This document shows positions 284 through 13,274 of a stretch of DNA of 59,082 nt, one piece after another. How positions within the stretch are numbered: the stretch's first letter is position 1; every line of letters starts with the position of its first letter. The notes beneath the pieces were generated by a model. The model did not search any database and had not been told where the DNA came from. It saw only the letters and a list, made by a program, of their open reading frames with translations. The stretch covers positions 1-59,082 of the forward strand of contig JAUYOW010000102.1 of NCBI GenBank assembly GCA_030697825.1, read 5' to 3'. This DNA comes from Gemmatimonadales bacterium (GTDB lineage: Bacteria; Gemmatimonadota; Gemmatimonadetes; Gemmatimonadales; JACORV01). A program made the position numbers and the translations under genes.

Positions 284-1626
284 TTCCCCGCCCTGAACCG
301 CAGTATGGCGGCCAGCCGGTCCAAGCGCCGCGCCGGCGAGCCACGCACCACCGCGACCCGCGCCCGCTGGCGGAGCGCGTCCTCGATCGCGTCGTCGAGC
401 AGGTCCGCGATGGGGAGCGGCTCGCCTTCCCCGCGCGCGGAGGCGGCATCCTGGGTTAGCCGGCCGCTGCCTGAGCACCGGAAGCCCGGCAACTCGGCGT
501 CGTGATCCACCAGCAGCGTGCCCACTTGTCCCCGCGCCAGCGCCTTCAGCGTGGGCTCCACCCCGTTGGCCGCCCAGCCGGTGCCCGCGGCCGTGAGGTA
601 GGCCTCGACGTCCCGTTCCGCGCGGCTCCGGGCCCGGTCGTCGAGGTAGTCGGTGACGCGCTCACGGACTTCTGCGGCCGTCACGTGCTTGGGCGTGAGG
701 GTGATGGTCGCCACGGCGCGACGATCGGTGATGGATGGATGGAGATGGCGGATGAGGGCGCCGGGCTCGGCGCCGATCCCGCCTACCAGTAGTCCGGCGA
801 ACAGCTCGCTCCGGAGCCGCTGCGAGACTACCTCCGCTACGTGCGCCAGATGACGGTGCTTCTCCTCGCGGATCCGGTTGTGGAACCGGAACTCGCCGAC
901 GCCGGGCGCCGCACCGCGGTCCGGGTGGAACCTTCCCCCCCGCGTCGCGTCCGGCGCAACCAGGCCGTCAAGCTCCTGCGCACCTTCCAGCCCGCAGTCG
1001 AAGAGACGCGCCGACCGCCGGTCGGCCACGACCACCAGCACTCTGGTGCCGGACTCGGCCAGCGCGACCAGCTCGCCGACCACGGGCGTGCGGTCCACCA
1101 GCACGCGGCTCCGCAGAACGTAGGGGAGCCGGACCACTCGGAAGAAGCCCTTCGCCGCGAACACGGCCACGCCCCGCCCGCCCTCGAGGTTGGACGAGGA
1201 CCGGAAGAACTCCTCGATCCGCGCCAGGGCTGCCCCGACGCTCTCGCGGTCGGCGTGCGAGAAGCCCGGGATGTCGAGTCGTAGGGCGGCCCGGCGGAGC
1301 CGGTTCTTGAGCTTGATGCGGTACTTGTCGCCGGCGCGGTCGCCCGTCTCGAGCTTCTGGTAACACGAGACGACCCAACCTGCCTGGTTGTCGAGCGCCA
1401 GCAGCTCGGCGAGCGCGCCATGAAGCTCCGTCGCTTTCGCCGTGCGCCCGTGCGCCGGTGCGCCCGTGCCCCCGTGCGCCCGTGCCCCTGTGCCCCCGTG
1501 CGCCCGTGCCCCTGTGCCCCCGTGCGCCTGCGCGTCTGTGCCCCCGTGCGCCTGTGCCTCTGTGCGCCCGTGCCCCCGTGCCCCTGTTCCGCCCCTAGAA
1601 AAAGACCGGCTCTCGGTACGCACCAT
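280..1626 (-). CDS. BaeRF-type (bacterial eRF1-like) protein with repeat-encoded N-terminal tail
   Basis: The 448-aa frame resembles the bacterial archaeo-eukaryotic release factor family (BaeRF, probably family 10), relatives of eRF1/pelota of unproven role, perhaps in ribosome rescue. Supporting stretches are the hydrophobic strand [17 protein letters not shown], the [11 protein letters not shown] helix, and a C-terminal [12 protein letters not shown] segment. The conserved domain starts near residue 67. Residues ~12-62 are an 8-residue TGARAHGG-type repeat encoded by the array at 1442-1593. The first start (1626) overlaps the mutase gene by 32 bp; a later GTG or TTG start would remove part of the tail, and the sequence does not decide between them. 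It is coupled to the HAD gene by GTGA. Confidence 0.65.
1442..1593 (+). repeat. 19-unit array of an 8-bp repeat (GTGCSCCY) with 24-bp higher-order period
   Basis: Nineteen units of 8 bp abut the mutase stop codon. Most are GTGCCCCC, GTGCGCCC or GTGCCCCT, and they often follow one another in that order, giving a 24-bp super-unit. No unit makes a stop codon in any of the six frames, so spurious long frames run through the array on both strands. On the minus strand it is translated as an 8-residue TGARAHGG repeat. It resembles slippage-prone microsatellite DNA and has no spacers of the CRISPR kind. Confidence 0.9.
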
Positions 1627-3313
1627 AAACTCCTTCCAATGCCTCGCGGATCTCGAACAGCGTGCAGTACGAGCGCGCGCAGTCGAGCATCGCGGGGATC
1701 ACGTTCTGGTTGTGGCGAGCGGCGTCGGCCAGCGTGTCGAGTTGCCGGCGGCACCGGTCGTTGTCGCGGGCGGAGCGCAGCTTGCGCATCCGCTCGGTCT
1801 GCTCCCGCTCTACCTCCTCGCCGATCTTGAGGAGCGGGATCCCTACCTCGGGCTCCTCCAAAACGAACTCGTTCACCCCGACGATGACCCGGCGGTTCTC
1901 TTCCGCGTCGCGCTGCTGCTTGGCCGCCGAGAGGGCGATATTGCGCTGGAACCAGCCCATCTCGATCCCCCGCACCACTCCGCCGATCTTGTCTATCTCG
2001 GCGAAGATGGCTTCTGCTTCCGACTCGAGCTTGTCGGTGAGCGCCTCGACGTAGTAGGAGCCGCCCATCGGGTCGGCGACGTTAGGCACGCCGGTCTCGT
2101 ACGCCAGGATCTGCTGGGTGCGCAGCGCCAGCAGTACCGCCTCCTCGGTGGGGAGGGCGAGGGTTTCGTCCATGGAATTGGTGTGCAGCGACTGGGTACC
2201 GCCCAGCACCGCGGCGAGGGCCTGGTACGCGACGCGCACCACGTTGTTCATCGGCTGCTGCGCGGTGAGCGACACGCCGGCGGTCTGGGAATGGAAGCGC
2301 ATGGTCCAGGAGCGGGGGCTCTTCGCTCCGTAGCGCTCGCGCATGTGACGCGCCCAGATGCGGCGCGCGGCGCGAAGCTTGGCGACCTCCTCGAAGAGGT
2401 CGTTGTGGATGTCCCAGAAGAAGCTGAGCCGCGGCGCGAAGGCGTCCACGTCGAGCCCTCGCGCGATGCCGTGCTCGACGTAGCAGAACCCGTTGGCGAG
2501 GGTGAAGGCCAGCTCCTGCGCCGCCGTCGCCCCTGCCTCGCGGATGTGGTAGCCGGAGATGGAGATGGTGTTCCACCGCGGCGTGTGTACCGCGCCCCAC
2601 TCGAACATGTCCACGATGATCTTGAGCGCCGGCTCCGCCGGGTAGATCCAGGCGTGCTGGGCCATGTACTCCTTCAGCATGTCGTTCTGCACCGTGCCGC
2701 GCAGCTGCTCGCTCTTCACTCCCTGCCGCTCCGCCGCCGCGACGTAGAAGCAGAAGAGCATCGCCGCGGGCCCGTTGATCGTCATCGAGGTCGAGACCTG
2801 GTCGAGCGGGATCCCGTCGAACAGCGTCTCCATGTCGGCGAGGCTCGAGATGGCCACGCCGCACTTCCCCACCTCGCCGAGCGACCGCGGGTGATCCGAG
2901 TCGTAGCCCATCAGCGTGGGGAAGTCGAAGGCGACGGAGAGGCCGGTCTGGCCGCGGCCCAGCAGGAACTTGTAGCGCTCGTTGGTCTCTCGCGCGCCGC
3001 CGAAGCCGGCGAACTGCCGCATCGTCCAGAGGCGGCCGCGGTACCCGGTGGCGTGGATCCCGCGGGTGAACGGGTACTCGCCCGGCAGGCCGAGGCTGTT
3101 CGCGTGGTCGAGGTCCGCGACATCCAGGGGCGTGTACACCGGTTCGACGTCCCGTCCGGACACGCCGGTGAAATCGGCGTCGCGCAGCTCGGCGCGGGCG
3201 TACTTCTCGCGCCAGGCAGCCAGCTCGCGGCGCAGCGCCTCGAGCTCGCGCTCGCGCTCCTCCAAGCGGTCCGCGAGGTGTTTGGCCGCGAGATCGGTCT
3301 CCAGAACGCTCAT
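1595..3313 (-). CDS. Methylmalonyl-CoA mutase, large (catalytic) subunit without the B12-binding domain
   Basis: Converts (R)-methylmalonyl-CoA to succinyl-CoA with adenosylcobalamin, linking propionate and odd-chain catabolism to the TCA cycle. The 572-aa protein starts with a charged coiled helix (residues ~1-45), then the TIM-barrel acyl-CoA mutase domain. Key stretches are [20 protein letters not shown] (CoA channel), [10 protein letters not shown] with the conserved catalytic His, and [10 protein letters not shown]. The C-terminal cobalamin domain (DxHxxG) is absent, as in two-polypeptide mutases, so a separate B12-binding subunit must be encoded elsewhere. Its ATG overlaps the meaB stop by ATGA. 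An isobutyryl- or ethylmalonyl-CoA mutase is a less likely alternative. Confidence 0.9.
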
Positions 3314-4371
3314 GTCAGGCTCCCTTGCACTCGCGCGAGGATCCCTTGCGCAGCTTGGTACGGGCTCACCCGGCCTGCGGATACGTCATCCAGCGCCGAC
3401 TCCACGTCCCGCTTCGGACCGGCATCCGACCAGACCCACCGTTTGAGCGCGCGGTCCACGACCTCGCGGGTGCGTAACTCGCGGCGGCGCTTCCGGCGAG
3501 CCGCCAGCGTTCCCGCGGCCTCGAGGTGCGCGTAGTGCCGGTCGAGCGCGTCCACCAGTTCGGCGACGCCGGTGTTATCGGCGGCGACCGTCGCGAGCAC
3601 CGGCGGCTCCCACGCGGCTGGGCTCACGGCCGCAGCCTCGGACCCCTGGGCGCCGGTGCCCCCGTGCCCCTGTGCCCCTTTCTTGAGGCCCGCCCCGTGA
3701 TGCGCTCGCACATGCCGATACGCCTGCCCGCTCCGCATCCCCATCGCGACTTCGAGTTCCTGCCGCAGCCCGTCCGCGCCGGGCCGGTCCGCCTTGTTCA
3801 CCACGAAGACATCGGCGATCTCCATCAATCCGGCTTTCATGACCTGGATGCCATCGCCGGACTCGGGGACCAGCATGACCACGGTGGTGTCCGCCGCGGC
3901 TGCCACGTCCAGCTCCGACTGCCCGACCCCGACCGTCTCGATAAGGATACGGTCGAAGCCGTAGGCGTCCATGACGTCGGCCACTTCGCCGGTCGTGGTC
4001 GCCATGCCGCCCTGAGACCCGCGCGTGGCCATGGACCGGATGAACACGCCGGGATCGAGGGAGGCGCGTTCCATCCGGATGCGGTCGCCGAGGAGCGCAC
4101 CGCCGGTGAAGGGGCTGGAGGGATCCACCGCGATGACGGCTACTGTGAGCCCGCGCGACCTATAGGAAGCTACGAGCCGCTCGATCAGGGTGCTCTTGCC
4201 GGCGCCTGGTGGGCCGGTGATGCCGATCCGGCGGGAGCGGCCGAGCTTGCCGTGGAGGCCGGCGAGCAGCTCCTCGAAGCCGGGGGCGCCATTCTCCACC
4301 AGTGAAATGGCACGGGCGAGGGCGGCGGTCGTCCGCCCGGCGAGGCCATCTAGGAGTGGTTGAATGGACAC
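3310..4371 (-). CDS. meaB: Methylmalonyl-CoA mutase-associated GTPase MeaB (ArgK family)
   Basis: A G3E-family GTPase that protects and reloads B12-dependent mutases. The 353 aa show Walker [10 protein letters not shown] at residues 53-61, the ETVGVGQSE switch region and the NKAD guanine-specificity motif. It lies directly upstream of, and overlaps, the mutase gene, the usual partnership. Residues ~231-241 are the 8-bp repeat translated in frame, inserted between the GTPase core and the C-terminal dimerisation arm, where the family is otherwise conserved in length. Start is GTG at 4371, only a few bases from a likely promoter. Confidence 0.92.
3648..3679 (+). repeat. Four-unit 8-bp repeat patch inside meaB
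   Basis: Units GGGCGCCG, GTGCCCCC, GTGCCCCT, GTGCCCCT, read in phase with the array at 1442. On the coding strand they give a [11 protein letters not shown]-like stretch in MeaB. The reading frame is kept on both sides. Confidence 0.8.
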
Positions 4372-4377
4372 GACCTA

Positions 4378-4406
4378 AATCAAAGCCAGACTTGGGAATA
4401 GGTCAA
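4378..4406 (-). promoter_or_regulatory. Putative sigma70-type promoter of meaB-mutase-baeRF-HAD
   Basis: On the minus strand, -35 TTGACC (4401-4406), a 17-bp spacer and -10 TTGATT (4378-4383). The expected start point falls at or within a few bases of the GTG of meaB (4371), which suggests a leaderless transcript. The -10 is only a moderate match. Confidence 0.4.
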
Positions 4407-4692
4407 GATTGGGGGGGGCATCCTGGGGGTAGCTTCAATCTGGCGCGCGGAAGGCGGGGCGCGAGGCCGATACCATTGACGAGGCCCAACCCTGGCGTAG
4501 CTTGGCGCCAAGGAACTGGAGGACCACGCCGGATGAACAAACGTGAGTTCGTGCGCACCCGCCGGATGCACTTAGCGCCGGTTGACCATGCGTCGCCGCT
4601 CGGAACGGGATCGCGGCCGCCTGGGCATCCACGATCTTCTGCTGCATGACGGCGACATATCGTCCTTCCATGGAGGACAAATTGCTATTGTC

Positions 4693-4714
4693 TTGTCCTT
4701 AGTGCCAAGGACAA
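4693..4714 (-). terminator. Hairpin just after the nucleotidyltransferase stop (terminator or operator)
   Basis: An inverted repeat TTGTCCTT / AAGGACAA with a 6-nt loop lies immediately 3' of the minus-strand stop codon. There is no good U-tract, so it may be a DNA-binding site rather than an intrinsic terminator; another GGACAA sits 12 bp farther on. Confidence 0.4.
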
Positions 4715-5203
4715 TTAGCGGCCGCGGGCGGCGCGCAGGCGCTTGATCTGCTCGAGGGCTTCGACGTCCGCGATATCGAGCGGCCGGCCGCTTCGCTTGC
4801 TGGCGATGAGGTCGTCGATCCCGACGAGCGGAACCTCCACCCCGTCAACATCCACGCGTGAGGCGCCCGGCAGGGCGGTGCGGTAGTTGATGCTCCACGC
4901 GCCCAGGAAGATGTCCACCCCCGGGTCGTCGCCGATGACCGTGATGGGGCGCGCCAGGATCTCGGCGGCCGTGAGCTCGCGGGCGAAGCCGTAGCCGACG
5001 GTCGCGAGCGCCTCGAGCACCCGTTCCGCGTTCTCGCGGGTGGGCTCGATGAGGATGTCCACGTCCGTGGTGGCGCGGACGTAGCCGTGGAGCACGCACG
5101 CTGCTCCGCCGATCACCAGGTACTTCGCATCGCAGCCGTTGAGCGCGGCGCAGACCTGGATGATGCGACTCCTCACCCGCCGATTCGTTGCGCCGTCTTC
5201 CAC
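4715..5203 (-). CDS. MNT/AbiEii-like nucleotidyltransferase, possible toxin
   Basis: A small (162 aa) protein of the DNA polymerase beta-like nucleotidyltransferase fold: VIGGAACVLHGYVRATTDVD carries the GG...TTDVD signature with two metal-binding Asp, and a third acidic position follows in GVDIFLG. Such stand-alone proteins occur as type IV/type VII-like toxins or antitoxins acting on tRNA or on a partner. It follows the ribbon-helix-helix gene. Two starts are possible: GTG at 5203 (31-bp overlap) or GTG at 5176, which gives a GTGA overlap with the upstream stop. I slightly favour 5176. The target is unknown. Confidence 0.7.
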   Translation of the reverse strand: MEDGATNRRVRSRIIQVCAALNGCDAKYLVIGGAACVLHGYVRATTDVDILIEPTRENAERVLEALATVGYGFARELTAAEILARPITVIGDDPGVDIFLGAWSINYRTALPGASRVDVDGVEVPLVGIDDLIASKRSGRPLDIADVEALEQIKRLRAARGR

Positions 5204-5583
5204 AGGTCGTAGTCGTCCCAGGATTCGAAGCCGATCACTTGGTGGCGCCGGCCGCGGCGCTGCCGCGAGCGGGCCAGACGACCCAGCTCCTCGGCGCGCT
5301 CGAGTCGTGCGGCCGGGGTCAGCGCCAACTCGGCCTCGAGGTGGCGGAGCCGCGCGCGCTCGACGTCGGCGGCGGGTGCCGCGTACGGCGCCGGCGCGTC
5401 TTCGCGCACCAGGGCCGGCGCGCGCGCGCCCCTCCCGGCATCGTCGCGAACGGCGCCGGCGAGGAAGCCTCGCAGCGCCTCGGCCACCACCCAGCTGCGG
5501 GAGCGCTGGAGGGCGCTGGCGCGGCGATCGGCCTCCTTGAGGAGGCGGGCCGGCACGGTCACCGTAACGCGGGCGAGAGCCAC
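5173..5583 (-). CDS. Ribbon-helix-helix protein, likely antitoxin partner of the nucleotidyltransferase
   Basis: 136 aa. The first ~45 residues (ARVTVTVPARLLKEADRRA ... RSWVVAEALRGFL) look like a CopG/Arc-type ribbon-helix-helix DNA-binding domain with strand and two helices. The middle is Ala/Arg rich, and the C-terminus (FESWDDYDLW) is acidic and aromatic, a plausible partner-binding tail. RHH proteins commonly dimerise, bind their own promoter and neutralise the following gene product. Position, order and overlap with the nucleotidyltransferase fit a toxin-antitoxin operon, but this pairing is inferred. Confidence 0.65.
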   Translation of the reverse strand: MALARVTVTVPARLLKEADRRASALQRSRSWVVAEALRGFLAGAVRDDAGRGARAPALVREDAPAPYAAPAADVERARLRHLEAELALTPAARLERAEELGRLARSRQRRGRRHQVIGFESWDDYDLWKTAQRIGG

Positions 5584-5907
5584 GGAATCATACTACGTAT
5601 GAGTGACTCATATCGCAAGGCCCGCGCCCGTCCGGCCGCCCTTGCGCGCCGCGGGAGGCCGAGGATATCATCGGAGTGCGTGCGAAGCCACTGCGGCGCA
5701 GGTGCGCCGCGCGGAGAGGGCCGGGGCGATTGTCCCGGCCTTCATGTTTTCCGGTTACGGGCCCGCGTGCCTGGGTCAGCGAGCGCGCAGGACGGCCTGC
5801 CGGCCACAGATGGCGAGGCCGCTCGCTGGCTGCGGAGAACGCTCGAGAGCATGGCGACGCCGTGCTCCGTGAAGGCGTACCGTCGGGCCCGGCGCGCACC
5901 GCCCCAA

Positions 5908-5934
5908 CTTGAAGTCACAGATTGTGACTTCAAG
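5908..5934. repeat. 27-bp palindrome in ORF6N sequence, copy 1
   Basis: Perfect 12-bp arms CTTGAAGTCACA and TGTGACTTCAAG around GAT. It codes for LKSQSVTS on the minus strand of the broken ORF6N gene. Confidence 0.9.
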
Positions 5935-5977
5935 ATGCGGCAAAGCGTACGGAGGATACCGACTCCCGCCCCATGAC

Positions 5978-6004
5978 CTTGAGGTGCCAGACTGGCTCCT
6001 CAAG
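5978..6004. repeat. 27-bp palindrome in ORF6N sequence, copy 2 (diverged)
   Basis: Arms CTTGAGGTGCCA and TGGCTCCTCAAG around GAC, with one mismatched pair. It codes for LRSQSGTS in the N-terminal part of the same broken gene. The bases have changed but the pairing is largely kept. Confidence 0.85.
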
Positions 6005-6306
6005 TTCCGGAACTCTTCCGCAGAAAGGCGAAACATGAAATCTGGAGGAAAGCGCTGGATGTTGCGTCTTACCGCGCGCATGAGAGCTTTCGTCTCCACT
6101 CCGTACATCTCGGCCAGCACGGCATCGAGCAGGACCTTGTGACCGCGCAAGAGCATGATGGCGCTTGTGATGCGCTCAAAGGGCACAAGGCTCGCTTCCG
6201 ACATTGGATCATCGTAGCTGAATCAGATCACCACCGAATTACCAAGCGAGGACCTAGGGTAGTCTGCCGCGGAAGACCCATGTCATCGTTTCCTCCCGTT
6301 TCAGGA

Positions 6307-6495
6307 TCATGGCAACGCACCGCCTGCTCGCCGGCGCTGGATGTGCACCACCTTGCCGCTCGCGCCGGAGCCTCTCACCAGCTTCTCCACGGCGGCTCGC
6401 GCCTCGGCTTCGGTCCGGCCGTGGAGGTCTAGCGTCACGGCGGGGCGCGCGTCGAGAAGTGCGCCATGCGAAGAGTACCGCGGCTGGCGAGGCAT
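6307..6495 (-). pseudogene. Truncated second copy of the Smr-domain gene
   Basis: From the ATG at 6495, ~52 codons match the intact Smr gene 1114 bp farther right almost exactly: MPRQPRYSSHGALLDARPAV and LDLHGRTEAEARAAVEKL, up to GKVVHI. The match then stops abruptly and the TGKGKSSRGS motif and the rest of the domain are missing. The frame ends in unrelated residues at 6307. With the active core incomplete, it should not fold as an Smr domain. Confidence 0.85.
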
Positions 6496-6498
6496 CAG
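6340..6498. repeat. 159-bp direct repeat, left copy (partner at 7454-7612)
   Basis: Direct repeat with an offset of exactly 1114 bp, no gaps and 6 differences (about 96% identity). It spans the Smr gene from just before its start codon to the VVHI codons. The sequences diverge at once on both sides. Confidence 0.95.
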
Positions 6499-6517
6499 GC
6501 CGCGCCGACGGCGCGCG

Positions 6518-7120
6518 CTACATACTCCCGATACGGTGCCGGCCCGGAGCAAACCGGATCGGCCGCCGAGGTGGATGTCGGGCATGGATGATTCTACGGT
6601 GGCGATGGGTCGGGCCGCGAGTCGCCGAACCGATCCGCTTCCGACGGGGCACGACGGGCACCATGAGGTCGCGGATCGCCCGGAATACGACCCGAAGCTG
6701 GCTATCGTAGCGGCGCTCGAGATCCTCCAGTTTTCGCGCCAGTTCGGCGTTCGAAGCCAGCATGAGCCGAATTCTCACGAAGGCACGCACGATCTGTACG
6801 CTTGTTTCGACCGCCGTTGGGCTGTTCAAGATGCTGGCAAGCATGACCGCACCGTGTTCCGTGAATACGTTCGGCAGTTTCCGGCGTCCGCCCCAGTCGG
6901 CACTTGAAGTCGCAAATTGCGACTTCAAGGTCGCGGCTTCATCAGCCGTGAGCCGGAACATGAAATCCTCTGGAAACCGCGCCAGATTGCGCTTGACTTG
7001 CTCGTTCAGGCGCTTGGTCGTAACCCCGTAGAGGACCGCGAGGTCAGCGTCCAGCATGACCCGCTGACCCCGCACAACGTGGATGGCGGACTCGATACGC
7101 TCGGCTGGAACAATGGCCAT
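6518..7120 (-). CDS. ORF6N domain-containing protein
   Basis: 200 aa. Residues ~5-95 are a full ORF6N domain: RIESAIHVVRGQRVMLDADL, YGVTTKRLNEQVKRN, FPEDFMFRLTADE, LKSQFATSS, WGGRR and NVFTEHGAVMLASILNS. A helical segment follows (VQIVRAFVRIRLML, then a LARKLEDLERRYDSQ coiled coil). The family is found in phages and accessory islands and probably binds DNA; the role is unproven. Family members usually end soon after RRKxIGF. Here the frame reads IGSATRG and runs on for ~35 unrelated residues; removing one base near 6645 would restore IGF and a stop 11 codons later, so a late frameshift is possible. It is only ~50-55% identical to the broken copy at 5742-6204. Confidence 0.8.
   Translation of the reverse strand: MAIVPAERIESAIHVVRGQRVMLDADLAVLYGVTTKRLNEQVKRNLARFPEDFMFRLTADEAATLKSQFATSSADWGGRRKLPNVFTEHGAVMLASILNSPTAVETSVQIVRAFVRIRLMLASNAELARKLEDLERRYDSQLRVVFRAIRDLMVPVVPRRKRIGSATRGPTHRHRRIIHARHPPRRPIRFAPGRHRIGSM
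6903..6929. repeat. 27-bp palindrome in ORF6N sequence, copy 3 (perfect)
   Basis: Perfect 12-bp arms CTTGAAGTCGCA and TGCGACTTCAAG around AAT, inside the intact ORF6N gene. It encodes LKSQFATS. Confidence 0.95.
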
Positions 7121-7309
7121 GGCCCAAGATGGAGCCCTCGGCGACGCACGCCCAACCGGAAACGCGCGTCGCGGATCAATTCATTGCATCAAGGCAGCCC
7201 GGCGTTAAGACTCGTCCCTGACCCGCCGCGTGCGCTCCGGGTAGCTCAGCTTGTCCTCGTGCATGGCGCGGCGCGCGGGCGGCGCGTGACTCGCTTCCGG
7301 TGAGGAACT

Positions 7310-7609
7310 TCAGCGAACGAGGACACGGTAGCCGCCCTCGCCGTCGTCGAGGTCCCATTCGCGGACCAAGGGCGCCAGCGACCCCTTGAGCATGCCGCGA
7401 ACCAGGTTCTTCAGCACCGGCGAGCCGCGGGAGCTTTTCCCCTTCCCCGTGATGATGTGCACCACCTTGCCGCTCGCGCCGGAGCCTCTCACCAGCTTCT
7501 CCACGGCGGCTCGCGCCTCGGCTTCGGTGCGGCCGTGGAGGTCGAGCGTCACGGCGGGCCGCGCGTCGAGCAGTGCGTCATGAGAAGAGTACCGCGGCTG
7601 GCGAGGCAT
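7310..7609 (-). CDS. Smr-domain protein (small MutS-related)
   Basis: About 99 aa from the ATG at 7609; an upstream TTG at 7624 would add five residues. The Smr signature is complete: LDLHGRT (the LDxH motif) and TGKGKSSRGS (the TGxG motif), ending in GEGGYRVLVR. Smr domains nick or cut DNA or RNA and occur alone or at the C-terminus of MutS2; recent work ties some to ribosome-associated mRNA cleavage. This is the full-length partner of the truncated copy at 6307-6495. Confidence 0.88.
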   Translation of the reverse strand: MPRQPRYSSHDALLDARPAVTLDLHGRTEAEARAAVEKLVRGSGASGKVVHIITGKGKSSRGSPVLKNLVRGMLKGSLAPLVREWDLDDGEGGYRVLVR

Positions 7610-7612
7610 CAG
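7454..7612. repeat. 159-bp direct repeat, right copy (partner at 6340-6498)
   Basis: The copy that lies in the intact Smr gene; see the left copy for extent and identity. The two copies bracket the intact ORF6N gene. Confidence 0.95.
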
Positions 7613-7718
7613 CGGCGCCTCCAAGTTGAGGTTCGTGGCCTCACCAGTCTAGGCGTCGCCTCGCCGGCGGCAAGTGATGCGACGGCGCTCGCGGCCTGCG
7701 CGGTGTAGCTTGGGGGCG

Positions 7719-7988
7719 ATGCAGCGGTATCGTCTACTCGCGGCCGATGGGTCATTCCGGGATAGCGTGGTGCCCGGCCAGCTCGCGGGCAACCGGCGGA
7801 GCCGGATCTATGGGCGGCTGGATTGTCCGTCGGCGATCCGGGTGTTGCAGAAGGGTTACGCGAAGTGGCGGGTGTTCTTTGCGGATGAGGCGGCGGCTGT
7901 GGCGGTGTGGTATCGGCCGTGTGGCAGGTGCCTGCCGATTGAGTATCGGGCCTGGAAACTCACTTGCTCGGACCCGAGGAGAGGATGA
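7719..7988 (+). CDS. Ada-type metal-binding domain protein
   Basis: 89 aa from an ATG at 7719. It resembles the N-terminal zinc domain of the Ada methyl-phosphotriester repair protein: RIYGRLDCPSAIR, KWRVFFADEAAAVAVWYRPC and GRCLP. One Cys in DCPS and two in RPCGRC are visible; the fourth ligand of Ada is not obvious, so zinc binding may be altered. In Ada this Cys cluster accepts a methyl group from DNA phosphates. Stand-alone copies of the domain are common in bacteria. Its stop overlaps the next gene by ATGA. Confidence 0.78.
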   Translation: MQRYRLLAADGSFRDSVVPGQLAGNRRSRIYGRLDCPSAIRVLQKGYAKWRVFFADEAAAVAVWYRPCGRCLPIEYRAWKLTCSDPRRG

Positions 7989-8503
7989 CCCGACTGGACC
8001 AAGACGATGTTTGGAGCCTCTACGCGTCAAGTCTGAAGCGGGCGAAAGAAAAGCTCGCCGAGCTCAGCGTGTTTTCTGGGAAAGAGCCGCATTTCTCCGG
8101 CCTGAGCGGTTGGGTGTTCGAGCAGACAGTCCAGCACTGCATTCGAAAGGAACTCAAGGCCAAAAGGGTAAGGGCGGAGGTGACAGAACAGGTGAGCCTT
8201 GGAGGAAGAGCCAAGGCGGATCTCGTTGTCGGGACCGTGGCGATTGAGATCAAGACGAGCGGACTCTTCAGCTTGAAGGATGCCACCAAGTACAAGCGGT
8301 ACAGGAAGGCAGCCGAGGCGAGGGGCCTTCGGTACGTGTATCTGACATGGGAGGAGAGCTTCCTGCCCTACAAGCGCGCGCTTGATAGGGCGCTCGGAAA
8401 GAAGAACGTTTTCTACCTGAACGACGATGGGGAATGGCAGCGGTTCATTGCGTTCCTTGCTGGGTCAAGCAGCGTCCGTGCCGGAAGCCAACGTGCGGAA
8501 TAG
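7985..8503 (+). CDS. Putative PD-(D/E)XK-fold nuclease
   Basis: 172 aa from the ATG at 7985. The segment KADLVVGTVAIEIKTSGLFS has the D...(9-10)...ExK spacing of a PD-(D/E)XK nuclease core (D in KADL, then EIK). It is preceded by a helical region with FEQTVQHCIRKEL, which could provide the first acidic residue. The rest is basic (KYKRYRKAAEARG). No family name is recognised. It is coupled by ATGA to the Ada-type zinc gene, which suggests a joint role in damage recognition and cleavage; this is inference. Confidence 0.55.
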   Translation: MTRLDQDDVWSLYASSLKRAKEKLAELSVFSGKEPHFSGLSGWVFEQTVQHCIRKELKAKRVRAEVTEQVSLGGRAKADLVVGTVAIEIKTSGLFSLKDATKYKRYRKAAEARGLRYVYLTWEESFLPYKRALDRALGKKNVFYLNDDGEWQRFIAFLAGSSSVRAGSQRAE

Positions 8504-8572: not shown

Positions 8573-9103
8573 CTATCTGCTCCAATCCGGGATGGCGGAA
8601 CCGGCCTCGAACATCTGTACGTGTTTGTCGCCGACCGCGTACAAATCTAGCACCAACTTCCGGCTCAGCGCGGCCGGGATCTTGCGAAGCTGACGAATCC
8701 ACTCAGGAGCGTCCGGAACCGCGAGCCCGTATCGAACGCGGGGGCTCTCGAGCTTCATTGACAGCAGCAGCTGCCCAACTGCTGAGTACATGGCTTGCTC
8801 GCGCTGCCTTGAAGAATCAGCCTCAACCTCGATTAGGCGCGTACCGAGCCTTACGTGCTCCGCGACCACGTCCACGGACCCGAACAGCGCGTGCTTTCCG
8901 AGGACGGCACCGAGCCTCTGAAGGCCTGCAAGTGCCTCCGCAGCACGTCCAGCCTTGTCGGGATGATGCTTGCCGCCCTTCGCCCGTTCCATCGGGTCAA
9001 CGTCGACGGTTACAGCCCATCCATTCGCTGGGTGAAAGCAAAGCTGGACCAGCGCGCGCTTCACTTCAAGCTGGTACATGTCTCGTCTCGCGGCACTGGA
9101 CAT
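8573..9103 (-). CDS. Uncharacterised protein, possible PD-(D/E)XK-like fold
   Basis: 176 aa (or 168 from a second ATG at 9079). I do not recognise a family. The segment SVDVVAEHVRLGTRLIEVEA followed by a Gln/Arg-rich helix (SRQREQAMYSAVGQLLLSM) has the D...ExE layout of some nuclease-fold proteins. The region before it, DPMERAKGGKHHPDKAGRAA, is charged and probably flexible. It is the last of four minus-strand genes with short gaps (15 bp to the MazG-like gene), so it is probably co-transcribed with two HNH nucleases and a MazG-like protein. Confidence 0.55.
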   Translation of the reverse strand: MSSAARRDMYQLEVKRALVQLCFHPANGWAVTVDVDPMERAKGGKHHPDKAGRAAEALAGLQRLGAVLGKHALFGSVDVVAEHVRLGTRLIEVEADSSRQREQAMYSAVGQLLLSMKLESPRVRYGLAVPDAPEWIRQLRKIPAALSRKLVLDLYAVGDKHVQMFEAGSAIPDWSR

Positions 9104-9118
9104 CCGACATCCGCAAGG

Positions 9119-9475
9119 TCAACGGCCAAGGGGTCGCGAGTGCTGACCCCTCGCCTCCTCCGCAGGGTAGTTGGCGTGGTTGATCTGGATCTTTTCGTTC
9201 ATTGCCCCGACAAAGTCAATGCCCACGCGCTCGCACAGCAACAGAAGCGCGATGCCCACGTCCGCCGCTTCCATCGCCACACGCTGGCAGTTGTCTGGCT
9301 CCTTCGACCACGCGTCCGCCTCGGCATTCGCGATCCAGCGGTATTCTGCCAACAGCTCCCCCGCCTCTGACGCCACCGCGATCGCGAGGTTCTTCGGGTC
9401 GTGGAACTGCTCCCACTCCCTCTCGGCCACGAATGCGCGCAGCCGGACTACCACGTCTTCAAGTCGATCGGCCAT
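9119..9475 (-). CDS. MazG-like nucleotide pyrophosphohydrolase
   Basis: 118 aa from the ATG at 9475, which follows a GGAGCG ribosome site; the longer frame to 9514 would overlap the HNH gene. It matches the all-alpha NTP pyrophosphatase family: FHDPKNLAIAVASEAGELL with the conserved EAGEL acidic helix, then EAADVGIALLLLCERVG with the ExxD metal site. These enzymes hydrolyse (d)NTPs to monophosphates, sanitising the pool or starving phages. It sits 8 bp after an HNH gene. Confidence 0.82.
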   Translation of the reverse strand: MADRLEDVVVRLRAFVAEREWEQFHDPKNLAIAVASEAGELLAEYRWIANAEADAWSKEPDNCQRVAMEAADVGIALLLLCERVGIDFVGAMNEKIQINHANYPAEEARGQHSRPLGR

Positions 9476-9483
9476 GCTCGCTC

Positions 9484-10413
9484 CTAGCCCCGGTACACCG
9501 TATCCACGTGCCACTCGAGGAATTCGCGCGCGGGACGTTCAAGCTCGCGATGGGGGAGATGTATCTCCGCGCCCGCCAGAGGCAAGTACGGCTCACCGTT
9601 GTCGAAGTCGTCCTTCAGTTTGCGGCTCACCAACACCTTTCGCTCGGGAGTGACCGAGATGTAGCCCCGGTCGAAGAGCGTGTGCACGTCCGAGCGCAGC
9701 AACAACCCGTTGTCGAGCCGGTGCTGGCCGCCCTCAGCCACGGGCTTGATGTGCGCCGCCTGGAGTACCGGCAGGGCCTTCTCACCCGAGATGGCGCACC
9801 GCCGGTTATACGCATCCGTCACCATGACCCGGAATGCGCCCTGGCGGAGTCGCATACGCCCACGCTGACCCTCGCCGTACATCGAACCGCCGATCTCGAC
9901 GGGCCGCTCCGCACCGGCGTGCAGTGTCAGCGCCCGTGCCTCAAGTACTTGGTCCCACAGCGCACGACCCTCGCCAGCGCCGAGATCGTACCCTTTCCCT
10001 TGCACCACGCTCTTGGCGAAGTCGGTCGGAGCCGGGATCCATCGGTCTCGCGGGAGGAAAAACGGTTCCTGGAGCACGATGCAGCCGATCTCGTAGTCCT
10101 CGCGCGCACTGGGCGGGATCGCGCGCCGCCTCTCGATCAGCTGGCGCATCCGTGTGTAGGATGGCGCCCCGTTCTTGATGCCGAAAGTGTCCCAGACGAT
10201 GCTCACGGGCAGCCGCGTGAAGGACGCGAAGAACCCGCCGCCGGCAATGAAGTTCAACGGCCAATGGAGCTTGAACAGCAACGGCCCGCCGTCGGAGAGC
10301 TGCCTGAAGTCGCGCCCCCCGCTGGGCTGCCAGAAGTTGACCTCGTCGATGCCCTCCTGCGCCGCGAGGAATTCGAACCAGTCGTTGTCGGTCACGGCGA
10401 CGAAGGCCTTCAC
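9484..10413 (-). CDS. HNH endonuclease (first of two, HNH_2 type)
   Basis: 309 aa. The N-terminal half (residues 1-150; AFVAVTDNDWFEFLAAQ, VNFWQPSGG) is a recognisable conserved domain of putative restriction endonucleases, probably a target- or modification-reading module. The C-terminal half is the nuclease: CAISGEKALPVLQAAHIKP, GGQHRLDNGLLLRSDVHTLF and RGYISV supply the His-Asn-His ions. Such genes are typical of restriction or phage-defence neighbourhoods. It is separated by 51 bp from the second HNH gene upstream. Confidence 0.82.
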   Translation of the reverse strand: MKAFVAVTDNDWFEFLAAQEGIDEVNFWQPSGGRDFRQLSDGGPLLFKLHWPLNFIAGGGFFASFTRLPVSIVWDTFGIKNGAPSYTRMRQLIERRRAIPPSAREDYEIGCIVLQEPFFLPRDRWIPAPTDFAKSVVQGKGYDLGAGEGRALWDQVLEARALTLHAGAERPVEIGGSMYGEGQRGRMRLRQGAFRVMVTDAYNRRCAISGEKALPVLQAAHIKPVAEGGQHRLDNGLLLRSDVHTLFDRGYISVTPERKVLVSRKLKDDFDNGEPYLPLAGAEIHLPHRELERPAREFLEWHVDTVYRG

Positions 10414-10464
10414 AGCGCCATAATAACCGCCAGGCAGGCCACGCGGAACAGGCTTGAACTTCTG

Positions 10465-11394
10465 CTAGGCCGCCAGGAACCGCTCGTACCGCTCCGCAAG
10501 GTAGTCCCGGTTCGGCCTGAGCTCCGTCCGCCGCGGCAGTTGGATCAACGCCCCGTGCATCTCCTTGAGCCCGTGCTGGAGCATCGGGCCGTCGCGTTCA
10601 TCCAGTACGTCGTGCCGGATCGTGATCAGACAGTCCGGCGAAATGCCGAGGATGTCCACGTCGAAGGCGGCGTGGTGGATCTTGCATAACGCCAGCCCGT
10701 TTGGCACCTCGGGCCGGCCCCGCTCGTCCCGGTCCGGCAGGATGTGAGCCGCGTCGAGCAGCTCACCATGCCGGAGATGGCACACCGCGCACGAAGTGTG
10801 ATACGCCCGTACCACCAGCTCGCGGAACCGGTGTTGGTGGAGGCGTTTCTTCACTGACACGGTCTGGTACCCGCGCTGCGCCGCGAACTGCGTCGGATCG
10901 ATCCCGGGCGCGATCGGCGCATAGCCGAGGACGTCGGCCGCAACGTGGAACGTCAGATCCGCCGGGTCGTCACCCACCACGTACACCGGATAGACCGCTT
11001 CGTACAGGCCTGGCTCGATCCCGTAGAAGTAGATGAGCGGGCGTTGCACCTCCATCGCCCGCCGCACCGCCCGGTTGGTCCACAGGTCCGGATCCTCGCC
11101 CTGATAGCGATACACAAACCACCCGTCCTCGGACGCCACCTGATCGTCGTAAGGCGGCGTCTTACCCGCCCGCGGCGGCGTGGTGGTGATTGACAGCGCC
11201 GGCCCCTCGGCGCCTAACTGCTTCGGCCGCCAGATGCCGCGATACCGATTGAATAGGGGGATGCGCTCGCCGCGGAACTCGAACCCCGCCTCGAGATCGG
11301 CGAGCGAGACCAGGCCGCCCGACCGGTCGCGCAGCCGGCTGAGGTGATCGAACGCCGCGAGTCGGAGCTCCCAGTCCGCGTCCACGCCACTCAC
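10465..11394 (-). CDS. HNH endonuclease (second of two)
   Basis: 309 aa, the same length as its neighbour but clearly a different lineage. The C-terminal nuclease reads FRELVVRAYHTSCAVCHLRH, LLDAAHILPDRD, NGLALCKIHHAAFD: a zinc-type CxxC plus the HNH residues. The first ~190 residues have the FNRYRGIWRPKQLG and PPYDDQ features seen in McrA-like or YDJ2-like restriction proteins and may bind DNA. It is the first gene of the four-gene minus-strand cassette; upstream lies a 92-bp gap shared with the divergent esterase gene. Confidence 0.82.
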   Translation of the reverse strand: MSGVDADWELRLAAFDHLSRLRDRSGGLVSLADLEAGFEFRGERIPLFNRYRGIWRPKQLGAEGPALSITTTPPRAGKTPPYDDQVASEDGWFVYRYQGEDPDLWTNRAVRRAMEVQRPLIYFYGIEPGLYEAVYPVYVVGDDPADLTFHVAADVLGYAPIAPGIDPTQFAAQRGYQTVSVKKRLHQHRFRELVVRAYHTSCAVCHLRHGELLDAAHILPDRDERGRPEVPNGLALCKIHHAAFDVDILGISPDCLITIRHDVLDERDGPMLQHGLKEMHGALIQLPRRTELRPNRDYLAERYERFLAA

Positions 11395-12445: not shown

Positions 12446-12474
12446 TTGACGGCGACTCTCCAATCGCCTAGTTT
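12446..12474 (+). promoter_or_regulatory. Promoter of the MqsRA-like pair
   Basis: -35 TTGACG, a 17-bp spacer and -10 TAGTTT, about 25 bp before the toxin start. Confidence 0.5.
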
Positions 12475-12492
12475 CACCATATGGTTATGGTG
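12475..12492. promoter_or_regulatory. Likely operator of the MqsRA-like pair
   Basis: Inverted repeat CACCATA / TATGGTG with a 4-bp centre, directly after the -10 box and over the expected transcription start. This is where an MqsA-type antitoxin would repress its own operon. Confidence 0.5.
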
Positions 12493-12499
12493 CTTCAGT

Positions 12500-12823
12500 A
12501 TGCCGCGATGGGCCTCCAGGGCCGTGAAACGGATCCGCCACCTCGCGGTCCTCGGTCGGGTACGGTTGACCCACAAGGCGCGTCTCGAGCTCGCGGAGCT
12601 CGCCATCGGCCTGGGCGCCAGCGACGTGCCGGCGCTGCTCGCTGGGCTCGATACGGGCAACGCGGCGTCGCGCTACCGTTCCTCGCTCACCGGCGAGTGG
12701 CTGCATGTCTTCCATCCGGTCGCCGCCGGTGTCCGCCTGTACATCAAGGTCGTGCTGCGCCATCACTGCGTCGTCGTCTCCTTCCATGAAGACGAAAGCA
12801 CCGAGGAGAGCCATGAGGGCTGA
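12500..12823 (+). CDS. MqsR-family toxin
   Basis: 107 aa from the ATG at 12500. The order LTHKARLELAELAIGL, GEWLHVFHPV, LYIKVVLRHHCVVVSFHEDE fits the MqsR-like branch of RelE-fold mRNA interferases; the VVVSFHEDE end is typical. The acidic tail overlaps the next gene by 11 bp. The toxin-first order matches mqsRA. The toxin would cut mRNA when the antitoxin is degraded. Activity is inferred from the family and context. Confidence 0.75.
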   Translation: MPRWASRAVKRIRHLAVLGRVRLTHKARLELAELAIGLGASDVPALLAGLDTGNAASRYRSSLTGEWLHVFHPVAAGVRLYIKVVLRHHCVVVSFHEDESTEESHEG

Positions 12824-13274
12824 TCGCACCCGCGCCGGAGCGCACCCTCGCCGCACAACCGTCCTCCCCGACGACGCGTGCCCCACCTGCGGCACGATGA
12901 TGGTCGAGCGCCGCGCCGCGCTCACGCTCCCGGTGAACAGCGAGGTGATGCGGGTGCCGGACTGCTCCCACCTCCGCTGCCCCAGGTGCGGTGAGATCGT
13001 CCTGCGCCTGGACGAGGCGCGGGCCCTCGATCGCGGGGCGTTCGACCGGTACCGGACCAAATACGGCCTGCTCTCCAGCACCGAGATCCGGGCCATCCGG
13101 CAGCGCCACGGCCTCACCCAAGGCCAGCTGGCGCACCTGCTCAGGCTCGGCAGCAATACCGTTTCGCGCTGGGAAGCCGGCCGCAACGTGCAGTCGGCGG
13201 CGATGGACGTGTTGCTCAGGCTCGTTCGCGACGTGCCTGAGAGTCTGAACTACCTGCGAACCCACCCAGCGTAG
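12813..13274 (+). CDS. MqsA/YgiT-family antitoxin (zinc finger plus HTH)
   Basis: 153 aa. The N-terminal half has two CxxC pairs (CPTCGT and CPRCGE) forming a YgiT-type zinc domain that binds the toxin. The C-terminal half is an Xre-like helix-turn-helix (IRAIRQRHGLTQGQLAHLL, NTVSRWEAGRN) that would bind the operator upstream of the toxin gene. Start is the ATG at 12813 inside the toxin's last codons; the longer open frame upstream is toxin sequence in another frame. Confidence 0.85.
   Translation: MRADRTRAGAHPRRTTVLPDDACPTCGTMMVERRAALTLPVNSEVMRVPDCSHLRCPRCGEIVLRLDEARALDRGAFDRYRTKYGLLSSTEIRAIRQRHGLTQGQLAHLLRLGSNTVSRWEAGRNVQSAAMDVLLRLVRDVPESLNYLRTHPA

Follow-up and report, generated by a model that had tools for sequence, protein, structure and literature searches.

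A predicted modification-dependent endonuclease and a DCTPP1-type pyrophosphatase as a recurring gene pair in Gemmatimonadales and other bacteria

Gene content of the locus

The stretch of DNA analysed here (59,082 nucleotides of contig JAUYOW010000102.1 from a Gemmatimonadales bacterium, hereafter the window) carries four minus-strand open reading frames (ORFs), designated A, B, C, and D, with gaps of 51, 8, and 15 nt between them in the window ORF listing. A reading made earlier from the letters alone (the sequence-only reading) had proposed these four same-strand genes with this spacing, and the ORFs were confirmed. The genes and one convergent neighbour are as follows:

10465..11394, minus strand: gene A, 309 aa, GTG start; HNH domain at approximately residues 177-302 plus a distinct N-terminal module (HNH_2, 3.7e-9)
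9484..10413, minus strand: gene B (core), 309 aa, GTG start; predicted PUA-superfamily (ASCH/EVE-like) domain at approximately residues 1-150 plus a C-terminal HNH domain (HNH_2, 1.7e-12)
9119..9475, minus strand: gene C (core), 118 aa, ATG start; predicted all-alpha NTP pyrophosphatase of the DCTPP1/RS21-C6 type
8573..9103, minus strand: gene D, 176 aa; orphan with a PD-(D/E)XK-like pattern by eye (VDVV...LIEVEA...GQLLL)
7964..8503, plus strand: gene E, convergent neighbour; PD-(D/E)XK-like by eye (KADLVVGTVAIEIKTSG), with no family match and not shown to be a member of the module

If C began instead at the GTG further upstream (9514), its 5' end would run into B. G+C content was 0.70 for the window, 0.65 for the cassette, 0.61 for D, and 0.58 for E (the lowest of the region), a fall across the cassette such as would be seen for acquired DNA. 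The rest of the region holds housekeeping genes, with ORF6N and Smr duplicates adjoining the cassette. The esterase upstream had been called broken; this is plausible, since the divergent ORF beside the cassette has no convincing N-terminus.

Two further features flank the cassette. At 5776-7624, remnants of a local duplication comprise paired ORF6N genes, an Smr-domain segment present twice (159 nt, 96% identity, copies separated by 1114 nt), and 28-nt palindromic repeats; the larger ORF6N protein matched the PADLOC candidate defence family PDC-S05 (7e-54). At 12446-13274 on the plus strand, a short RelE-like ORF (by eye) is followed by an MqsA-type antitoxin gene (Pfam 2e-12), a probable toxin-antitoxin pair.

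HNH_2 matches above the curated Pfam cut-off were obtained for both A and B, and the two proteins could be aligned over the HNH part alone (~33% identity), in keeping with their earlier description as two unlike 309-aa HNH enzymes. Their C-terminal HNH type is common to the SRA-HNH and SBD-SRA-HNH enzymes (TagI, ScoMcrA). Profile searches of A and B detected no SRA or sulfur-binding domain, and Pfam SRA gave no match in eight members of the A family; the TagI match to A was confined to the HNH domain, and a YDD...G motif in A is SRA-like by eye only. Phosphorothioate-dependent restriction was rejected for both proteins for want of a full-length match, as the PT-DNA_restrict profile (NF045808, cut-off 180 bits) scored 70 bits against A and 77 bits against B, each time over the C-terminal part only.

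In three genomes from the window's order, relatives of A were found with neither B nor C, and plasmid-borne relatives, likewise lacking both (Allochromatium, Methylibium, Azospirillum, Bradyrhizobium, Actinomyces), were solitary or had type I restriction genes or unrelated genes as neighbours. The notion that the HNH genes would be inseparable from the others thus fails for A, which is a local companion outside the conserved B-C core. Viral contigs searched with A, C, and D yielded no relatives. Gene D is an orphan, a local add-on in the window's genome: it matched nothing in Pfam, NCBIfam, PADLOC, or PDB, as expected of the fourth protein described earlier as lacking a recognised family, and no recurring or convincing homologue was found in 250 order genomes, 150 phylum genomes, plasmids, phages, or viral contigs. 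Three weak database matches to D were dismissed as lying in antisense or unrelated frames or covering a short stretch only, and its single-sequence AF2 model was unusable (pLDDT 38).

Properties of nuclease B and pyrophosphatase C

The HNH motif of B (AAHI...N...H..LFD-type) was conserved in 21 homologues, and a profile of these matched VcaM4I (6yex) at 2.9e-13, over the HNH half. The structure of B was modelled with AlphaFold2 from 13 sequences; pLDDT was mostly 75-88 in the N-domain block, with dips to 61-65, and poor in the HNH half. Foldseek searches with the N-domain returned ASCH first (E 1e-5, TM to target 0.60-0.70), followed by EVE, YTH, and the N-domain of McrB, which binds m5C. These matches assign the N-domain of B to the PUA superfamily, with a fold that appears nearer ASCH than EVE; by sequence, Pfam gave no EVE hit for B even with E values as high as 1 allowed. 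Given this architecture (PUA-superfamily domain plus HNH, with VcaM4I kinship), B is predicted to be a modification-dependent (type IV) restriction endonuclease.

VcaM4I is an EVE-HNH enzyme dependent on 5mC/5hmC, and its EVE domain binds 5mC/5hmC (PMC7897488). B is like it in having 309 aa, an N-terminal PUA-superfamily domain, a linker helix, and a C-terminal HNH domain related in sequence, and differs in its N-domain, which is modelled nearer ASCH and has no detectable sequence kinship to that of VcaM4I. Enzymes of the VcaM4I type have been described as 'orphan', without a methyltransferase (PMC7897488), whereas B travels with a predicted dCTP pyrophosphatase.

No methyltransferase was seen among the neighbours of B in the window, and no PF00145 match was found in the window's genome. 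Across the order, C5-cytosine methyltransferases occurred in 4/13 genomes with B and 48/237 without it (Fisher p 0.48), so there was no depletion, and incompatibility of B with host C5-methyltransferases was rejected as giving no signal. If B reads 5mC, some contexts must therefore be tolerated. Two matches to B were obtained in viral contigs, over the HNH part only. Elsewhere, B lies next to a type ISP enzyme in Mesorhizobium, and at 6027-9517 of L119 (genome G023) a B homologue without C is followed by genes for a 274-aa protein, a C5-methyltransferase, and a Vsr-like protein.

The third gene had been called MazG-like, and C does exceed the MazG-like Pfam cut-off, if barely (28.1 vs 27 bits). 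Its best solved relatives were mouse RS21-C6 and human DCTPP1 (2a3q/6sqw; phmmer 5e-16). The EXXE...EXXD metal ligands of C (E37, E40, E69, and D72) are identical to those of RS21-C6 and conserved in all intact members. Residues W21, H25, W47, K95, N99, and Y103 are likewise identical to W47, H51, W73, K121, N125, and Y129 of RS21-C6, presumably the dCTP-binding pocket, and catalytic and pocket residues are nearly invariant across the C family. As judged from these residues, C is a DCTPP1-type dCTP pyrophosphatase with an intact active site and predicted activity. Its 118 aa amount to a catalytic domain alone, and neither a sensor nor an off-switch is visible.

DCTPP1 hydrolyses dCTP as well as 5-methyl, 5-formyl, and 5-halogenated dCTP (PMC7162842), and sanitation enzymes with 5-methyl-dCTP activity have been catalogued (PMC10742078). 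Because plain dCTP is also hydrolysed by DCTPP1, a preference of C for modified dCTP should not be assumed. All catalytic and pocket residues examined are shared by the two enzymes, yet the mammalian protein is a general nucleotide-pool enzyme, whereas C is bacterial, rare, accessory, nuclease-linked, and in one case fused.

Recurrence of the pair and other partners of C

C lay immediately downstream of B in 10/13 full-length-B genes from 250 order genomes (one C was truncated). With C placed at random among ~3000 genes per genome, ~0.009 such adjacencies would be expected among 13 (P ~5e-30). The pair was also present in class-level relatives (L185, L186, L187), in Acidobacteriota (L036 and L193), and, in reversed order with C preceding B and no gap, in Nitrospirota (L022). 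B and C form a single 414-aa ORF in L182 and overlap by ~30 nt in its sister genome L187; because the fused ORF lacks the last residues of B, it may have arisen through a deletion that joined the two genes, or through misassembly at the junction.

Distances among B and among C proteins were correlated (r 0.78, Mantel p 2e-4). When association with B was mapped onto the C tree, the label required 5 changes compared with 11.7 in shuffles, at least four of them forced by well-supported branches, and the partnership is therefore heritable yet has been swapped several times. Outside the window's phylum ~3/17 B homologues have C. B can thus dispense with C, and the pairing, though strong in certain lineages, is missing from others. 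None of the other B-C loci examined contained A or D, and a conserved four-gene unit was rejected, the four-gene order having been seen in no other genome. The recurrence count thus overturned the four-gene order proposed by the sequence-only reading while bearing out the adjacency of B and C. The anti-phage set it had envisaged survives in reduced form, as the HNH enzyme B with the MazG-like C, for which defence is likely, and without A and D as members. Taken together, B-C is very probably a functional module.

C itself is rare and accessory. Across 249 phylum genomes it had 20 strong places: 11 beside B, three beside an SLFN/DUF2075 helicase, two beside a PUA2 nuclease, and four without such a neighbour. 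The SLFN helicases were confirmed by Pfam in L188, L193, and L181 and assigned by visible similarity in the others, and 'PUA2' denotes a reading of a shared N-terminal segment rather than a profile result. In Acidobacteriota C was found in 8/247 genomes, with an SLFN helicase and/or B nearby in 5/8. Three-gene loci were seen as SLFN-C-B (L185), B-C-SLFN (L193), and SLFN-B-C (G051, which holds the closest relative of the window's B). Among the plasmid and phage C loci inspected, 6/14 had a partner and 8/14 had none; since C is partnerless in these and in 4/20 phylum cases, it has other uses.

Apart from B, C was found beside PUA2-HNH proteins (L181, L132, L215), a PUA2 segment fused to EVE and a NOV_C nuclease (L180), and an MrcB_N-HNH protein (L217). 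In the partnered plasmid and phage loci, C occurs with PUA2-HNH in Streptomyces and Nocardiopsis (7 nt gap, 4 nt overlap), with MrcB_N-HNH plus DUF2075 in Priestia, with DUF2075 in Halalkalicoccus, and with a convergent EVE-like-PD-(D/E)XK protein in the haloarchaeon Halosegnis (L219). In Vibrio phage 10N.286.55.A5_PE003 (L225), an EVE-like-HNH gene overlaps C by 29 nt; its HNH domain matched McrA (6ghc, 1e-4) and its N-terminus weakly matched an EVE/UPF0310 structure (E 0.5), the label 'EVE-like' in the phage and Halosegnis proteins resting largely on inspection. Pairings of C with other reader nucleases or SLFN/DUF2075 thus extend to Actinomycetota, Bacillota, haloarchaea, and a Vibrio phage, and C is a repeated partner of several unrelated nucleases predicted to read modified bases.

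Three side observations were made at these loci. Helicases of the SLFN-g3/DUF2075 kind that carry a PD-(D/E)XK-like segment at the N-terminus are paired with C in bacteria and a haloarchaeon (L188, L189, L190, L192-L196, L217, L220), an association of its own. The 522-5273 interval of L225 appears to be a defence hotspot within the phage genome: it encodes a HEPN-annotated protein, a GmrSD_N protein, a MazG-like protein, and two HNH proteins, with the MazG-like gene overlapping one of the HNH genes. In L185, another HNH gene lies downstream of SLFN-C-B at 3629-4558, and its N-terminus matched a type IV restriction model (PADLOC PDLC03662, 4e-9).

Possible role of the pair

Our preferred reading, to which we assign a probability of roughly one half (0.48), is that B-C joins a type IV restriction enzyme to a nucleotide-pool partner that removes C5-modified dCTP and so spares host DNA from B. 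B would read a modified base through its PUA-like domain (C5-modified cytosine being the likeliest, by analogy with VcaM4I), and its HNH domain would cut modified DNA and thereby act on invaders with modified bases. C would hydrolyse dCTP-type nucleotides and, we infer, most likely sanitise the pool: 5-modified dCTP, whether released from degraded phage DNA, salvaged, or made by phage-encoded enzymes, would be destroyed before it could be inserted by the host polymerase. Host DNA would thereby be kept from becoming a target of B.

A cell with a modified-DNA cutter must keep such bases out of its own DNA, which a dedicated pyrophosphatase would do. Sanitation would explain why C follows different reader nucleases, and it fits a small, unregulated enzyme that is co-expressed or fused. 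The SLFN/DUF2075 partners of C, which have no recognised modified-base reader, count against it, as do the undiminished frequency of C5-cytosine methyltransferases in genomes with B and the many B genes that lack C.

The main rival is a two-pronged attack, in which B would cut modified phage DNA while C would starve replication of dCTP or hydroxymethyl-dCTP, much as dCTP deaminase and dGTPase systems do. Defence by nucleotide depletion is well established, and the dCTPase site of C is intact. In addition, MazG is among the predicted but unvalidated defence domains in the searched text of DefensePredictor, a 2026 machine-learning study (PMC13092281). However, an enzyme lacking a visible sensor or off-switch would act constantly, the B-C fusion and matched evolution fit constant co-expression rather than triggered depletion, and loss of hydroxymethyl-dCTP would also let phage DNA escape B; we regard such an attack as less likely than sanitation. 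The sequence-only reading had likewise suggested that dNTPs would be depleted; this is possible, although the nearest solved relatives of C are dCTP pyrophosphatases, and the activity of such enzymes on C5-modified dCTP points to a more specific role.

It is improbable that A, B, C, and D merely came together by horizontal transfer in an ordinary defence island, each acting independently and with no joint function. A and D do vary freely, C can be solitary, and B often lacks C and shares its island with restriction-modification genes of type I, ISP, or other kinds, yet the 10/13 adjacency, the occurrence of both orders, the fusion, the covariation, and the unrelated reader-nuclease partners exceed island-level clustering. 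Slightly less credible still is that B belongs to the conventional type II enzymes and has either lost its methyltransferase or is encoded away from it, with C as a general stress house-cleaner. The G023 homologue near a C5-methyltransferase and a Vsr-like gene and the Mesorhizobium B beside a type ISP enzyme would suit such an origin; most B loci, however, have no methyltransferase, the window's genome has no C5-methyltransferase, and the N-domain fold is that of modified-base or RNA-modification binders, not of a sequence-specific recognition domain.

PUA-HNH modification-dependent enzymes and DCTPP1-like pyrophosphatases are each already known. No description of a reader nuclease paired with C was found by text searches or in the EVE, CoCoNuT, BREX, and DefensePredictor papers, the last as far as its searched text extends; Burroughs et al. 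2015, on nucleotide-centric systems, lay outside the search and may mention it. The likeness to the DefensePredictor systems is a MazG-type pyrophosphohydrolase predicted for defence, whereas the text searched held no pairing with a modified-base-reader nuclease (PMC13092281) and the present loci have a specific partner and MazG subtype.

Modification-dependent restriction enzymes have so far been described as acting alone. A recurring, once-fused dCTP pyrophosphatase beside predicted modified-base nucleases gives these genes a testable function, and it points to an overlooked problem: a cell armed with a nuclease against modified DNA has to stop modified nucleotides, whether salvaged or made by phage, from entering its own genome. 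More tentatively than for the pair itself, sanitation by C might define a class of restriction in which self and non-self would be kept apart by policing the nucleotide pool, not by DNA methylation, and in which a modified-base nuclease and a dedicated pyrophosphatase would have been assembled repeatedly, with varied reader-nuclease architectures, across bacteria, archaea, and a phage.
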